Assembly (NCBI GenBank): GCA_024220525.1
Contig: JAMYWO010000196.1
Span: 58,118-79,211, forward strand
DNA from: Cochliopodium minus
Lineage: Eukaryota; Discosea; Himatismenida; Cochliopodiidae
Length of the DNA: 21,094 nucleotides
Direction of reading: 5' to 3'
Below are positions 6,150 to 17,453 of this stretch, one piece after another. The translations under genes were made by a program, and so were the position numbers. Position 1 is the first letter of the stretch; the number at the start of each line of letters is the position of its first letter. The notes below the pieces were generated by a model. It worked only from the letters and a program-made list of their open reading frames with translations. It had not been told where the DNA came from and ran no database searches.

Positions 6150-6389
6150 ACCCTTTTTTTAACTTTGTTTGATACATTTTCTAATTTATTAAAAAAACTA
6201 AACAAAACATTCTCTATTTCATTGTTTTGAACAGATTTAAAATCCAATAAATTATTTCTCTCGGAGCAAAATTTTAGTTATGTACCAAAAAGGTCAAGAA
6301 TCTTTAAACTTTTATAAGAATAAAATGATTTATTTTTCATATAATTTCTTTTTTGCATTTTCAATTATATAAAATAAAATTAAAAAAAT

Positions 6390-7613
6390 ATGGAAGAAAA
6401 ATCAAATATAATTACAGAAGAATTATCTTTCAAACAATATATCAAAGCCCCCAAAAAGCTAAGAAAAAAATTGAAAGAAGAAGATTCCTTATATGAGCTC
6501 AAAATTAGTGAGAATTCCAACGAAGAATGGATATTAACTCATAATGATATAAAAAAGGCAACCATGAGAAGAAAAGATAAAATGGGATTCGAAATTACTG
6601 GGGAGAAAGAACATGTGGAAGCATTGATGAGAATCATTGCTTCATGTTTCAGCGATAAAATGAATAATATAGTTTCTGTTCAAATGAATAATTCACTCAA
6701 AGAAACTAAAGTAGATATAGAAATCAATGAAGAAGATGTTCAAAAGAAAATCTTTGAAATTTCAAAGGAAAGAGGATTGTTGGTGTTATTGATTGTGATG
6801 GATGATTTGGAAGGGATGGGAATGAAGATTAAATGCGATAAAATGCAAATCACATGGATATATCTCTCCCCAATGGATGATTATTTAACAATAGATAATA
6901 AAGAAGATATCATCTCTTCAAATGAAAAGAAAATCAAAATTGTAAGAGAAATTAAAAAAGTTTTAAAAGTTTTTTATTTTAATTTATTTGAAATGTCAAA
7001 AAAAAAGACAGGATTAGATTTGAGGAAAGCATTTTTTTATTGTAGAGAACACACTCCTTCGTTTCTTTATCAATTAATGTACGGAAAAATAATCTACGAA
7101 AGAGAAGATATAAGGAAAACAATCATTAACTCGACATTTCCTGCTAACCTAATCAAATCGCTTTGTTATTACCATTCCACCATTATTAAAAAACTAAAAT
7201 TAGCAATAACCCACAAAAATAACAAGACAGTAAGAAAAGAAACTTATTTAGATTTGATAAGAAGCACTCTTTCTTTGCTTTGGGTCTCTTCTCACTTAAA
7301 ATTAAGATCTGATTTCTCTTTTTTTATTCCTTCTAATGTTTTTACTTTGCTCAAAGATTTAAACTCTCCAAATTTCCATTTTGAAAAATTTTCCAAGAAT
7401 TTGTGTGAAGATCTCTTTTCTTGTCTCTCTTTGTTTAAGGAGAGGGAGGAGATTGATCGTATCCCTTCCGTTGATGATTGGATCAAATCTTTCTCCTTTG
7501 ACATCAACCACTCTATCACCATTCAAGATATTGGAAGTACCAAGAAGATTGATTCTTTATTCACTTCTCTCGTTTTAAAATATAATATCATCTTTTTTGA
7601 AAATAAAAATTGA
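6390..7613 (+). CDS. Intronless 407-residue protein of unknown function
   Basis: A single uninterrupted frame, ATG in an A-rich context (AAAAAAATATG) and TGA stop. No signal peptide, no clear TM segment. Residues 1-70 are strongly charged (KKLRKKLKEED). Around residues 65-190 a mixed alpha/beta region includes KMGFEITGEKEHVEALMRII and LLVLLIVMDDLEGMG. The C-terminal half is helical with many Leu/Phe/Ser. I do not recognise a family. The length, the codon use and the lack of stops in AT-rich DNA make it a real gene. It stands out because most clear multi-domain neighbours have introns. An orphan or fast-evolving protein is likely. Confidence 0.75.
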   Translation: MEEKSNIITEELSFKQYIKAPKKLRKKLKEEDSLYELKISENSNEEWILTHNDIKKATMRRKDKMGFEITGEKEHVEALMRIIASCFSDKMNNIVSVQMNNSLKETKVDIEINEEDVQKKIFEISKERGLLVLLIVMDDLEGMGMKIKCDKMQITWIYLSPMDDYLTIDNKEDIISSNEKKIKIVREIKKVLKVFYFNLFEMSKKKTGLDLRKAFFYCREHTPSFLYQLMYGKIIYEREDIRKTIINSTFPANLIKSLCYYHSTIIKKLKLAITHKNNKTVRKETYLDLIRSTLSLLWVSSHLKLRSDFSFFIPSNVFTLLKDLNSPNFHFEKFSKNLCEDLFSCLSLFKEREEIDRIPSVDDWIKSFSFDINHSITIQDIGSTKKIDSLFTSLVLKYNIIFFENKN

Positions 7614-10807: not shown

Positions 10808-12975
10808 CATTTATTTAATTATTTTAATCATGATTTTATTTTTTTTAAATTTTTCTTTATTTATTTTTTAATTCTTTATTTAAATATTGAATTTTATTAA
10901 TAATTTATTAATTTTATTTAGAATCATCCGAGCATGTGGGAAAAGTGATCCAAAACGAAATTTTCACATTGGACTTTTCTTGCCAAGTTTTCCCTGCAGT
11001 GGAAGAAGCTCTCAAAAACATCTGTTTCCTTGGAAGAAGTCAAATTAGAAAAAAAGAAATTAAAAAAAAAGTAAATTTTTATTTTTTTATTTTTGAATTT
11101 ATTTAAATAATTTTTTTTAAATTTTTTTTGATTTTATTAATTTAATTTTTTATTTTTTCTTTTTATTTTTAATAATTTTTATTTTTCAAAATTCATTTTT
11201 TATTTTTCATTTTTTTTAGATTGTTGAAGTTTTTTCAAAGAGAAAGAGAAATTTGCCTTGTGTCCCTTTTGACTTGGAAGACGAAATCGAAACCAACCCT
11301 TTTCTTGGGATCATGAGAGTAACCATTTTTTTAACATTAATTTCAATTTTTGTTAAATATTTTTTTCACTTTTTTTTAATTTTTTTTAATTTTTTTTATT
11401 TTTTATTTTTTCATTTTTTATTTTTTGTTTTTTATTTTTTATTTTTTATTTTTTTTTTATTTTTTATTTTTTATTTTTTATTTTATTATTTTTTTATTTT
11501 TTATTTTTGTTACTTAAATTTATCAATATTTTTTTTCTCGTTTATTAGCATGATCTCTACCATTTTTTGAGAACGAGAGTAGAGCCTTACCCTGTCTCTT
11601 ATCTTCTCTCCAAACTTTCTAGTGAACGTGAAGTAATATTTTTTATTAAATTTATACTTTTTTTAGTTTTATTTTTAAAATTTTAAAATTTTTATTATTT
11701 TAAATTAATATTATTTTTTTGTTTTTTATTTTTTATTTTTTTTATTAAAGTTATTTTTTTAGTTCTTATTAATTCTTTTTTTTAATATTTTTATTTAAAT
11801 TAATTATTTATATTTTTTAAAAAGATAGGATTCGGAAAACATTTTGGAGTAGAGGATTTTGATAATGTAAAATTGATTGAAAGATTAGAAAAAATGGGAG
11901 ACAATGAGGAACTGACAGAGCCCCAAATCCTTACTAAACTTGTTTTGCTTTTGTCCTTGCTTTCCAACAAAATTTCAGAGGAGCTTGGTCGTGTTGGAAG
12001 AAGTAACATTTTGATAAAAGATGATAGAATTGGGTTTAGATTAAGAAAGGGAGAAGATTGGGGTAAAAATAAATTTGATTTTATTACATTAAAATTTTTT
12101 TAATTTTGTTTATTTTTTATTTTATATTTTTTTATTTTTTATTTTTTATTTTTTATTTTTATATTTATATTTTTTTATTTTTTTATTTTTATTTATTTAT
12201 TTATATTTACTTATTTATATTTTATTTTTTAATTAATAAATACTTTAATTTTATTTTTTATTATTTATCTTTGATTTTGTGATTTACTTCAGGTGCTACT
12301 CTGTTTTTGATGGTTAACGAAAAAAATCCCAGACTTTGTCCTGTGAGATGCCTCAAAAGATACTTGGTTCTCACTGAGGATTATAAGTTCGAAGAGGCGG
12401 AATACGGGAAGGAAATCGATCGTTTGTTTTTGTCACATGAAAAAGATCAAAGAAAGCCTTTGTTGGAAAGTAAAAAAAAATTTTTTAATGTTTTTATTTT
12501 TATTTTTTATTTTTTTAATTTTTTTCAGTTTTTTTTCAAAGTTTTTTTTTCATTTTTTTTTTTTAAAGATCAAATACTGGATATTGTCAAAGTTTTCTTG
12601 AAAGAAAGTGATTATGATCTGGAGTATTCTTCGGTCAGATCTTTCTACGAGAAAAGAGCCAAAGAGATATCCCACGAGGGAGCCAAATTTTATTCCTGCA
12701 ACAACCTGTTGTTGTCGAAATACAACAAAGCAGAAGCACTCATCTGGTGGCTCAAAGAAAAAAAGATGAATCCAAAGAGGATTATTTTTGTTGACGATAA
12801 CAGTGATAATGCCTTTTCTGTTTATATGCATATTTGTAACACTACCCAGATTAGTATTCATTCTTATTGGTACACCCCTCCGTCTTATGGGAAAGATGAG
12901 TTGTCTGATCAAGAGATGAGAAAGATGTTCTTGTACATTTCCCAAAACAAACAATTATCTTTGAAACAAAATTAA
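9901..12975 (+). CDS. Multi-domain pseudoenzyme: glyoxalase II-like, tyrosine-recombinase-like and HAD-like regions
   Basis: Eight exons join in phase (9901-10189, 10280-10453, 10922-11070, 11220-11318, 11549-11632, 11825-12062, 12293-12469, 12569-12975), giving 538 residues. Residues 1 to about 250 follow the hydroxyacylglutathione hydrolase (glyoxalase II) line: NLYSYLVIDKKEKLAVVIDA, a KVAAVL strand, then IPCILGMPTGSSMFYVEV, AFFSGKFL and the C-terminal NPFLGIMR. The metal-binding THxHxDH loop reads CTDNLPDFTRG, and the later His and Asp ligands are also absent. Residues 266 to about 445 resemble a tyrosine-recombinase core: LVLLLSLLSNKISEELGRV, RIGFRLRKGE, PRLCPVRCLKRYL, DRLFLS and YSSVRSF, without the catalytic Arg/His/Tyr set. 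Residues 440-538 look like a HAD/DUF2608 C-terminal half (NKAEAL, PKRIIFVDDNSDN). Function is unknown; a scaffold or sensor is possible. The joint after exon 5 falls at the 77-nt repeat and may be an assembly chimera, and exons 6-8 could be a separate gene. Confidence 0.6.
10740..10805 (+). repeat. (TTTTTA)n hexamer array inside an intron
   Basis: The intron between exons 2 and 3 of the 9901 gene contains about eight near-perfect copies of TTTTTA around 10757-10804, embedded in 470 bp of T-rich DNA. The same hexamer precedes position 2766 and forms the right end of the window. Confidence 0.8.
11567..11643 (+). repeat. Exact 77-nt direct repeat, copy B
   Basis: Second copy of bases 1-77, lying in exon 5 of the 9901 gene and the start of the next intron. 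The following introns stay related but differ by many small indels, while the exons after them (295 on in copy A, 11825 on in copy B) do not resemble each other. Confidence 0.9.
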
Positions 12976-13054: not shown

Positions 13055-14285
13055 TTAGTTTTCTTTATTTTTTTTGTCAGTGTAGTATTTGTATCCAAAA
13101 AAGGAAACACCAACAACAGTCAGTCCCAAAACTACACCTGTCAAAGTTTTCCAAATACTGAATTCACTTTTTAATGAATAAAAAAAAAATTAATCTTAAA
13201 AAATATTTAAAAATAATTAAAAATTAACCTATCTTCTTTTGGTACAGTCAATCCCCATCTTTTTGGTTGAAGAAAATGATCCAAAACGTCCTTACGAATG
13301 AGTGGCAAAGTAGTCAAAACATTTTCCTTGTTTCCATTCATTTCAATGTAATATTTTAATTTTGGTTCGGTACCTAAAAAACAAATTTATTTTTTTATTT
13401 ATTTTATATTTTTATTTTATTTTTTTTTATATAATATTTTAAAATATTTTAATTTTGTTTGATTTTTACCACTTCCTCTCAAAGTCACTTCAGCTCCATT
13501 TGAGAAATAAAAGGTTATCATTTGGGTAGAATTTGAAAGAGGGAGGGTTGGTTTAAAACCTTGCACTCTGCTGTCATGTCTTTCCAAAAAAATTAAAAAA
13601 AAATAAAAATAAGAAAATAAAAATAAGAAATTAAAAATTTTTTTTAAAAGAATTACAAAAAAATAAAAAAATAAATTACCCTTTTCCTGTCAAATCACGA
13701 ATGTGAGAAATAGGAAATTCTCCGCACAAAGCAGTGTATTTTCCATTGTTTCTGATTTCATCAAAAAGGTTTTTCATAACTACCCATTTATTTTCGATTG
13801 AAAAAAAATGAAATTGAAATTTAAAAATTAAAAAATAAAAAATAAAAAATAGATAATAAAAAATAAAAAAATAAAAAAATAAAAAATAAAAAAATGAATT
13901 AATTTTTTTACCAACAGGATCATAACAGTAGACATAACCATTTAAAGTAGAAAAGAAGCCAATTTTCTCGTAAATTTCGTTAAGGTAATCTTGCACTGTC
14001 ATTTTTCTGTTCTTCTTCAAGTAACCTGCCATTTCTGCAAACACTCCTGCTGTTCTAATTCCATCCTAATAAAAAAATGAAGTTATTTTGATTTATAATT
14101 TTTAATTTTGTGATTTTTTTTAATTAAATTTAAATATTTAGAATTTTTTTGTTATTTATTATTTACATTTTTTATTTTTATTCTTTTTTTATTTTTTATT
14201 TTTATTTTTATTTATTCTTTTATTTTTTATTAAAATTTATATTTATATTTATTTTTTTTTATTCTTTTTTATTTTTTATATTTAT

Positions 14286-14319
<34 letters not shown>

Positions 14320-17253
14320 ATTTATCATTTTTTTTTATTCTTTTATTTTTTATTTATATTTATTTTATTATTTTATTATTTTTTATGTTTTTTTGTTTTT
14401 TTTTTTACTTTATCCCAGCACAAATCACCAACCATGTAACCGATAGACTCTTCGAAAGCAAAGATGATGTTTTTTCCTTCTTTCTTGAGAGCGTCCGCAC
14501 GGGAACCTAACCACTTAAACCCAGTCAATGTTTCCTCATAATAAAATCCCTCTACTTCTGCAAATTTTTTCAAAGCCTATAAATAAAATTGAAAAAATAA
14601 AAATAAAAATTAATTTATAAAATAAAAAATAAAAAATAAAAATGAATATAAAAGAAAAAATATAAAATATAAAACATAAAAAAATAATTGAATTAATAAT
14701 AAAATTGAAAAAATAAAGAAAAAACAAACATAAAAATAAAAAATAAACGAAAAAACGAAAAAATGTAAAAAATAAAAGAAAATAAAAAAAATAAAAATTT
14801 AATTAAAATATTACAAAATTTACTAAAAATTTAATGAAATTATGTTAATAATAAATAAAAAATGAACGAAAAATAAAAAATAAAATATAAAATAAATAGA
14901 TGAAAAAAGAATTGATATAATAAAATAAAATTTCAAAACAAAAAAAGTAAAAAATTAAAAAAATTTTAAATAAACTAATTAAGTAAATTTGAATTAAATA
15001 AACTTTAAAAAAAATGAAAAAACTAAATAAACATAAAATATGGTAATCAAATAAAATTTGAAAATAAAAATTTGAAAATAAAAAATTAGAAAATAAAAAA
15101 AACTAAAAAATTAAATGAAATCATTTTTACTTTTGATGAAACTGCACTTGAGAGAAAGACACAATTCTTTGGGTCAACATTTGGATTTTTTTGTTTGTAA
15201 AGATACCTAATTTCGAATAAAAACAATAATTTTAAATAATTTTAAATAATTTTTTATTTTAATATTTTTATATTTTTTTTGATTTTTTTATTTTTTTATT
15301 TTTGATTTTTAATATTTTTTATTTTATTTTTATTTTATTTACCAAACCCAACTTGCCAAAATGATACCAATTTCGTTACCGTTGTACAACTTCCATTTTC
15401 CATTTACCTTTTCAGAAACACAAAATCTATCAGAATCAGGGTCATTGGCAAGAATGAGGGTAGCCTTATTTTTATCTGACAAAAAAATAAAAAATAAAAA
15501 AAAAATTTAAAATTTTAATTATTATTTTTTAATATTCATTAATTTTTTTAAAAATTTTTTTTATTTTTTATTCATTTTTTTTATTTTTTAATAATTTTTT
15601 ATTTATTTTTTTATTTATTTTTTTATTTTAAATATTTATTTTTCAATAATTTTGAAATATTTTTATTTATTTGTCTTAGATATATTTTTAATATTTTTTA
15701 TTTTTATTTTTATTTCATTTAAAATATTTTTTTATTATTTTTTGATTTAATTTTTTTATATTTTTTTATAATGTTAATTATTTTTATTTTATTTTTACCA
15801 GCGGTCTCAATTGCCAATTTGAGGGAACCCTTTCCTTCTTCAGGGTTGGGGAACTTTACGGTAGGGAATTCAGGGTCAGGCAACATTTGCTCCTTGACAG
15901 AGATGAATGGAGTAAGATTGAATGTTGAGAAAATCTTTTCTGCCCATTTTTGACCAACACCTGGTTTTATGAAAAATAAAAAATTTGAAATAAAAAATTT
16001 GAAATAAAAAATAAAAATAAAAAATTTGAAAAAAAATATGAAATAAAAATTTGAAATAAAAAATTTGAAATAAAAAATAAAAATATAAAAAATAAAAAAT
16101 AAAAAATAAAAAATAAACAAAAAATAAACAAAAAATAAACAAAAAATAAAAATGAAAAATAATAAAATTTTTTTATTTCGTGTAAAGAAAATATTAAATT
16201 TCAATTATTAGAAAACAGGGACATAATCAAAAGAAAACGACAAAAAAAAGATTAATTTTTTACCATGCATTGGTGTGAAGACGATCCCAAGATCCTTAGT
16301 GTTCTCCAAATTCTCGCTTCCAAACTGACAAAACTTATCCAAACAGTCCTTGTAGTAATTCCTCTCCACCTGCAAAGTGGGATCAACCAACAAAGAGTTG
16401 CTCTTGTCCAACAAAAGATCATTTGAAATGATATCGGACCAAGGCTCTTCGTTCTTTTCGATTTCATCTTTGATGTTCTTGTCTATTGGTTCGATGATTT
16501 GACTGCCGTTCTCCCAGTACACTTTGTAACCGTTGTATTCTTTTGGGTTGTGCGATGCTGTCACCATCACTCCTGCTGTTGCTTTGAGCAGTGTCACTGC
16601 GTATGAGACGAATGGTGTTGGTACTACTTCTGAGAACAAATAGACCTATTTTAAAAATACAATTTGTTTGGATGAGGATTTCGAAATTTAAAGGATCTTT
16701 GTTTTATATAATAAAATATAATGAAATCCCAAATTAATTTCACATTATTTTTTTTTATTTTTTTTTGGATCTTTATTAGTGATCCATATATAAATTTTCA
16801 ATGAAAGAAAAGTCCCAATATTTCCCAATATTTAAATGAATGAAATATATACCAATATATTTTAGAGAAAATGATATTTGTTTATATAATTAATTCTTTT
16901 TATACCCTTATTCCTTTCCCAAGAAAAATTTTAGCAGAGATTCTCGCATAATTCAAGGAATTGTGTCTTCCATCATATCCTATTACAACACCTCCATCCT
17001 GTTTTTTCTCATTGAGAATATGTTGGGCAATACCTTGTGCAGTTTGCGCAACGGTCAAGCTATTCATGTATGCAAATCCTCCTTTCATCACCTCTCTTAA
17101 TCCTGCAGTTCCAAAGGACAATTTAAAATTGAGTCTCTTATCCAATTCTTCCCAGTTTTTCTCATTGTAAAGATTTTCAATTTCCACTCTATCATTCTTT
17201 TCGAATGCATATTTCAACCATAAATCATATTTTTCTTGTATTTTCTCTGACAT
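13055..17253 (-). CDS. PGM2: Phosphoglucomutase/phosphopentomutase (PGM2 type) with a C-terminal membrane anchor
   Basis: Eleven minus-strand exons join in phase (17253-16906, 16645-16264, 15960-15799, 15475-15343, 15206-15131, 14576-14409, 14065-13912, 13779-13680, 13579-13470, 13373-13229, 13166-13055), giving 629 residues, near the usual PGM2 length. All hallmarks of the alpha-D-phosphohexomutases are intact: FGTAGLRE near 56, the phosphoserine loop TASHNP (Ser about 147), the metal loop NDPDSDR (308-314), [10 protein letters not shown] (406-415) and the phosphate-binding RGSGTEPK (542-549). The FEES-GYM sugar loop fits PGM2 rather than PGM1. The enzyme interconverts hexose or pentose 1- and 5/6-phosphates. 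The last exon adds a segment absent from known PGM2: [19 protein letters not shown] (about 600-618) with a basic tail [11 protein letters not shown], predicted as a tail anchor facing the enzyme to the cytosol. The start at 17253 follows a run of A and lies before the N-terminal helix. It is convergent with the 9901 gene, 79 bp apart. Confidence 0.95.
14577..15130 (-). other. Longest intron of the phosphoglucomutase gene, low complexity only
   Basis: This 554-bp intron between exons 5 and 6 is A-rich on the plus strand (AAAAATAAA-type words) with no coding potential, repeat family or RNA-like element that I can see. The neighbouring intron 14066-14408 has the opposite, T-rich polarity. Confidence 0.7.
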
Positions 17254-17453
17254 TTTTTTTTTTATAATTTTAAAGTCAAAGTGAGTAAAGATTTTATATT
17301 TATTGTGAGTAAAATATAAAGAAATGAGTAAAGATATGAGAAAAACAATAGGTATCATTCAAATGACTTTAAGAATGATCGAATGATCGACAATTTATAA
17401 CATATATCGTCAAAAATAATTGTTTTTTTCTTCCAAAATTTTGTTTTAATTTT

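Follow-up and report, generated by a model that had tools for sequence, protein, structure and literature searches.

A PGM2-type phosphoglucomutase gene whose last exon encodes a predicted C-terminal tail anchor, probably for mitochondria

Enzymes of the PGM2 type pass nucleoside-derived pentose phosphates and storage-sugar glucose-1-P into central metabolism. In the window, that is, the whole 21,094-nucleotide stretch of Cochliopodium minus DNA analysed here, a gene of this type continues beyond the apparent end of the enzyme into one more exon, which encodes a hydrophobic segment and a short basic tail. This locus raises the question of whether that exon is a genuine part of the gene and, if so, whether it would make a membrane protein of the enzyme, and at which membrane. 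The features that bear on the question are these:

17253..13055, minus strand: PGM2-type phosphoglucomutase/phosphopentomutase gene, 11 exons, 629 residues (gene model, Pfam, bacterial homologues)
13373..13229, minus strand: exon 10, which holds the end of the enzyme body, residue 592 (gene model; alignment with the presumed human PGM2 sequence)
13228..13167, minus strand: intron 10, 62 nt, donor GTTAAT, acceptor AAAAAG (gene model)
13166..13055, minus strand: exon 11, the added tail, from S593 (shared codon) to N629, with the stop TAA at 13057-13055 (gene model, codon score)
13159..13158, minus strand: AG of an alternative acceptor (TTCAG) that also preserves the frame; it would start the exon at 13157 and give 626 residues with an identical anchor
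13147..13091, minus strand: hydrophobic segment, codons 600-618, with a GxxxG pattern (G603, G607) and a 19-residue Kyte-Doolittle value of 1.69
13090..13058, minus strand: C-terminal basic tail, codons 619-629, net charge +2 (sequence)

All ten introns of the gene follow the GT-AG rule, and the joined exons give 629 residues with no internal stop. In Pfam the protein has each of the three alpha/beta/alpha mutase domains (PGM_PMM_I, PF02878, 1.7e-41; PGM_PMM_II, PF02879, 1.8e-23; PGM_PMM_III, PF02880, 6.1e-12). The active-site motifs are intact: TASHNP at 145, DPDSDR at 309, EES at 409 and SGTEPK at 544, which we take to be the catalytic Ser loop, the metal loop, the sugar loop and the phosphate loop, respectively. 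With these domains and motifs in place, the view of an earlier note on this DNA, that the enzyme is complete and keeps its catalytic motifs, is borne out. The closest homologues found in mainly prokaryotic collections are bacterial 'phospho-sugar mutases', at no more than about 37% identity; the best one listed from the plasmid collection has 36.5% identity at 88% coverage (9e-83) and spans residues 3-556, and among the 30 listed of 43 matching records the furthest-reaching match ends at 586. In the PDB the best match (2.1e-17) is 1tuo, a putative phosphomannomutase, and PGM1 structures match at 3.5e-11 or weaker. The protein lies nearer to the PGM2/phospho-sugar mutases than to PGM1, the E-values for the phospho-sugar mutases and for the PGM1 structures stemming from different databases. 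No NCBIfam model reached its curated cut-off, the top one being Arch_GlmM (133.5 against 439 bits). An alignment of the C-terminal half with what we take to be the human PGM2 sequence gives 109 identities in 230 aligned positions (47%). The three Pfam domains and the motifs GTAGLR, TASHNP, DPDSDR, TLTGFKW, EES and SGTEPK are common to this protein and the PGM2/phosphopentomutase subfamily (human PGM2, yeast Pgm3 and the bacterial phospho-sugar mutase); what sets it apart from that subfamily is 37 additional residues that form a predicted hydrophobic helix and a basic tail. Judged by its sequence, the enzyme is a PGM2-type alpha-D-phosphohexomutase, with predicted activity on glucose-1-P or pentose-1-P.

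The rest of the window holds several features of its own. A convergent open frame (12283-12975, plus strand) with a DUF2608 match comes to within 79 bases of the PGM2 stop, and for a 409-residue open frame (6384-7613, plus strand) Pfam gave nothing at E 0.01. The 32 bases at 1-32 recur, identical and in the same orientation, at 11567-11598, and by eye the repeat extends further; this pair, about 11.5 kb apart, may be a duplicated gene piece or an assembly duplication. At 2700-2850 a (TTTTTA)-like run meets an (AAAAAT)-like run at a single N (2766), which probably marks where two inverted simple repeats were joined in the assembly.

In our alignment the presumed human PGM2 sequence ends at residue 592, exactly where exon 10 stops; the 37 residues of exon 11 are thus an addition to an enzyme that is already complete. 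The earlier note had described an in-phase AG|T junction leading to one hydrophobic segment, a short basic tail and a stop 11 residues past the helix, and each part of this description was recovered. The junction 13229|13166 is in phase 2 (GAT AG|T), and exon 11 (13166-13055) falls inside the interval 13055-13170 given there for the tail. The most hydrophobic 19-mer of the entire 629-residue protein is 600-618, with a mean Kyte-Doolittle value of 1.69; the net +2 tail follows, and TAA comes after residue 629. The runner-up segment (1.46, at 128) is within mutase domain I. By hydropathy, the protein thus has the make-up of a tail-anchored protein, namely a single C-terminal hydrophobic segment and a short tail of 11 residues. 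Structure prediction for the last 36 residues alone, run without an alignment, gave one helix over residues 3-35 of that piece (mean pLDDT 91), and this continuous helix of the isolated tail may lend weak support to an anchor; Pfam had no match in the tail. Six acceptors are listed downstream of the donor. With two of them, which start the exon at 13166 or at 13157, the anchor stays in frame and the helix is the same; with those at 13194, 13137, 13131 and 13062 the anchor is lost.

Coding was scored against intron sequence with codon usage learned from 29 long ORFs, 7,317 codons in all, that lie in twenty 10-kb stretches of this genome. On this score the final 37 codons reach +38.2 bits, more than any of 264 intron windows of equal length (maximum 7.8); these windows overlap one another, and they derive from the very nine introns on which the non-coding table was trained. 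Exon 11 has 1.0 per codon, the second lowest value of the 11 exons (exon 5 has 0.75), and the margin of its own frame over the next best is only some 7 bits. GC content falls from 0.338 in exon 10 to 0.065 in intron 10, rises to 0.312 in exon 11 and falls again to 0.117 in the 60 nt past the stop, the 28-nt steps beyond the stop being uneven (0.036, 0.25, 0.036 and 0.143). Together, the codon score, the GC contrast and the frame-keeping acceptors indicate that exon 11 is probably real, and we infer that it is joined to exon 10 by splicing in vivo. Hydrophobicity alone proves little here, since 4,126 of 20,000 random peptides with intron-like codon usage contain an equally hydrophobic segment (with genome codon usage, 279 of 20,000 random 36-residue peptides do, or 1.4%); it is the coding evidence that carries the case.

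One could object that transcripts mostly keep the 62-nt intron, with exon 11 used rarely or never, so that the cell would have an ordinary soluble PGM2 of 599 residues. Such a product would end only 7 residues past the presumed end of human PGM2, and the donor of intron 10, GTTAAT, is the sole one among the gene's ten that does not start with GTA. Against this objection, exon 11 looks like coding sequence set between AT-rich flanks, with no stop before its own, and intron 10, at 6.5% GC, is like the gene's other nine introns, which together have 8.4% (a 200-kb sample of the genome has 17.0%); we consider disuse of the exon quite unlikely. The same retained form makes a splice switch possible, a reading that overlaps with the anchored one: with intron 10 retained the product would be a complete soluble enzyme, with it spliced out an anchored one, and the cell would make both. 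Besides the donor that is atypical for this gene, there is a precedent in FALDH, whose forms with different tails go to the ER or to the peroxisome, according to the excerpted text of PMC5450235. An atypical donor alone is no proof of regulation, and we rate such a switch as a tentative possibility on the unlikely side.

Nor does the other end of the protein offer a competing signal. Translation from an in-frame ATG at 17358, which precedes the PGM2 start by 35 codons, would begin with a hydrophobic stretch, MIPIVFLISLLISLYF... (17254-17358, minus strand); a hydrophobic N-terminal extension from this ATG was rejected on its codon score (-6.6 bits) and its GC content (18%). Because that stretch scores as non-coding, no N-terminal signal competes with the tail; as judged from the protein start and the codon score, the protein also appears to lack an N-terminal signal in the way that tail-anchored proteins do.

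We then compared the C-terminus with that of 92 homologous loci, comprising 9 from the plasmid collection (examined from among 43 records matched), 80 from bacterial genomes (the best 80 of 590 confirmed stretches from an alignment scan) and 3 from viral contigs; a single-sequence scan of the genome contigs collection found no relatives. A comparable tail was found in none of these 92 loci from bacterial records and viral contigs. From the SGTEP start to the protein end there are 86 residues here and 36-53 in all 92, and the best 19-mer starting at least 10 residues past the SGTEP start is no higher than 0.91 in every one of them, against 1.69 here. The statement in the earlier note that known PGM2 proteins are soluble agrees with these loci, as it does with the presumed end of the human protein at 592. 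In the titles, abstract openings and excerpts screened for anchored phosphoglucomutases, none described an anchored PGM2. A weak own-genome match, on C41, lies within a long ORF and was taken as chance.

It might still be supposed that, rather than spanning a membrane, the hydrophobic tail packs on the enzyme or oligomerises via its glycine pattern, the segment being moderately hydrophobic and carrying GxxxG at 603-607. Its placement in a separate exon beyond a complete enzyme, the basic tail that follows it and the finding of a matching segment in 0 of 92 loci argue otherwise, and we hold this to be very unlikely.

If the tail is a membrane anchor, its hydrophobicity and charge bear on the choice of membrane. 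The excerpted text of PMC5450235 gives yeast ER anchors a GRAVY above 1.75 and mitochondrial anchors a lower hydrophobicity than ER anchors; it describes mitochondrial tails as less charged than peroxisomal ones, which are highly positive, and reports that the tail of ACBD5, peroxisomal at +4.9, leads to mitochondria at +2.9 and mainly to the ER at +0.9. For hydrogenosomal anchors, the excerpts of PMC3174187 give a segment of 19-23 residues and a tail of 2-16 residues with 2-7 positive ones; on these measures the PGM2 tail has a segment of 19, a tail of 11 and 4 positive residues. The PGM2 anchor, at 1.69 (in a 19-residue window of our choosing) and with a tail of +2, shows the low-to-moderate hydrophobicity and moderately positive tail of mitochondrial outer-membrane anchors, borderline towards the ER, and lacks the highly positive tail of peroxisomal ones. 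Given a value below both the yeast ER level of 1.75 and two SNARE anchors of the same genome (2.23 and 3.48; two examined of nine synaptobrevin matches), together with the +2 tail, we favour the mitochondrial outer membrane over the ER or the peroxisome as the predicted target. The earlier note had left mitochondria, peroxisome and ER side by side: its tail anchor stands as the best reading, and its choice of membranes now leans towards mitochondria, with the tail charge borderline to the ER. The two SNARE-like proteins (L124 and L126) have strongly hydrophobic C-terminal anchors, and L124 ends almost without a tail.

A simple sum on a biological hydrophobicity scale gives +2.2 for the PGM2 segment, which is not favourable; since the same sum gives +2.28 for BAK and +4.13 for CYB5A, on what we assume to be their sequences, this measure does not discriminate. 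The genome contains pieces of the GET3 family as well as a match to ATP synthase gamma, so that an ER insertion route and mitochondria are both likely present. The GET3-family pieces are on contig C98, one covering profile positions 6-144 at 143.6-144.5 kb and the other 139-304 at 119.9-120.9 kb; about 23 kb apart, they may be two copies, one of them near the contig end, or the result of a rearrangement. The only Fe-hydrogenase-family match in the genome reads, in our judgement, like Nar1; if the organism had hydrogenosomes, those would be the likely target of the anchor. Anaeramoeba, in which genome and introns are likewise AT-rich (for A. ignava, PMC11550330 gives 80.65% A+T and 91.86% in introns), was considered a less likely source in view of this Nar1-like match and the ATP synthase gamma match. 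Fis1, wanted as a yardstick, was not found in the genome, and neither was 5.8S rRNA when it was searched for.

The anchor may be genuine and yet serve the ER or another secretory membrane via GET3, pieces of whose family are in the genome; the tail charge of +2 is borderline with the ER, and the ER anchor of CYB5A, in its presumed sequence, has a Kyte-Doolittle value of 1.71, close to the 1.69 found here. That 1.69 is lower than both SNARE anchors of the same genome and lower than the yeast ER level in the excerpts of PMC5450235 speaks against this target, which we judge rather improbable. Moderate hydrophobicity with a basic tail would fit a peroxisomal anchor as well. There, however, the expected tails are highly positive (in the same excerpts of PMC5450235, +4.9 for ACBD5, with +2.9 already leading to mitochondria), against +2 here, and PEX3 had no match in the genome, although that search also gave no signal in any control; a peroxisomal target appears highly improbable.

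A tail-anchored PGM2, probably on mitochondria, is in our view the best explanation of this locus, with a probability of roughly 0.6. The enzyme body (residues 1-592) would fold in the cytosol, and the helix 600-618 would insert post-translationally, once the chain has left the ribosome, with the mitochondrial outer membrane as the most likely destination. The approximately 11 mostly polar, net basic residues that follow would end on the far side, leaving the active site to face the cytosol. The interconversion of glucose-1-P and glucose-6-P, and that of pentose phosphates, would thereby be placed on the organelle surface.

In its segment of 19 residues, moderate hydrophobicity, glycines and basic tail of 11, the predicted anchor is like the mitochondrial tail anchors of FIS1, CYB5B and BAK, and its end, YKYYTDKK, resembles YRYYTSESK, the presumed end of CYB5B. 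It differs from those tail-anchored proteins in that the cytosolic domain is a metabolic mutase and the location is predicted. The hydrogenosomal tail anchors in the excerpts of PMC3174187 share the same features. Anchored sugar enzymes are already in print: the excerpted text of PMC2173943 describes two glucokinases, one from a diatom and one from the red alga Cyanidioschyzon, each with a membrane helix predicted at the C-terminus. What these have in common with the present protein is an upper sugar-phosphate enzyme joined to a C-terminal helix; that enzyme is a kinase and this one a mutase, and no shared ancestry is implied. In the excerpts of PMC8781159, CpPGM1B of Cryptosporidium is found at the vacuole membrane, with a signal peptide and no transmembrane domain. 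Both would be phosphoglucomutases at a membrane (here by prediction), CpPGM1B belonging to the PGM1 subfamily and having its signal peptide at the N-terminus. A tail-anchored PGM2 would be a new case beside the anchored glucokinases.

A search of the genome for the PGM_PMM_I domain gave three matches. Two are exons of the PGM2 gene; the third, on C552, is a piece that in our judgement resembles a GlmM/PMM-type enzyme. A PGM1-type model had no match in the genome, and the same model also missed the PGM2 gene; as exon-wise searching can miss split genes, the absence of a PGM1-type gene is suggestive only. If that gene is truly absent, the PGM2-type protein may be the cell's main phosphoglucomutase, and its anchor could, within the limited sensitivity of this search, govern the site of much hexose-phosphate interconversion. 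An improbable conjecture is that a 3' exon acquired late holds the sole PGM1/PGM2-type enzyme on the surface of mitochondria and that keeping intron 10, which is short and has an atypical donor, frees a soluble form; a single splice choice would then set where glucose-1-P and pentose phosphates are interconverted. If the anchored reading is true, this gene would be a simple case of a soluble metabolic enzyme turned into a membrane protein by one added exon.
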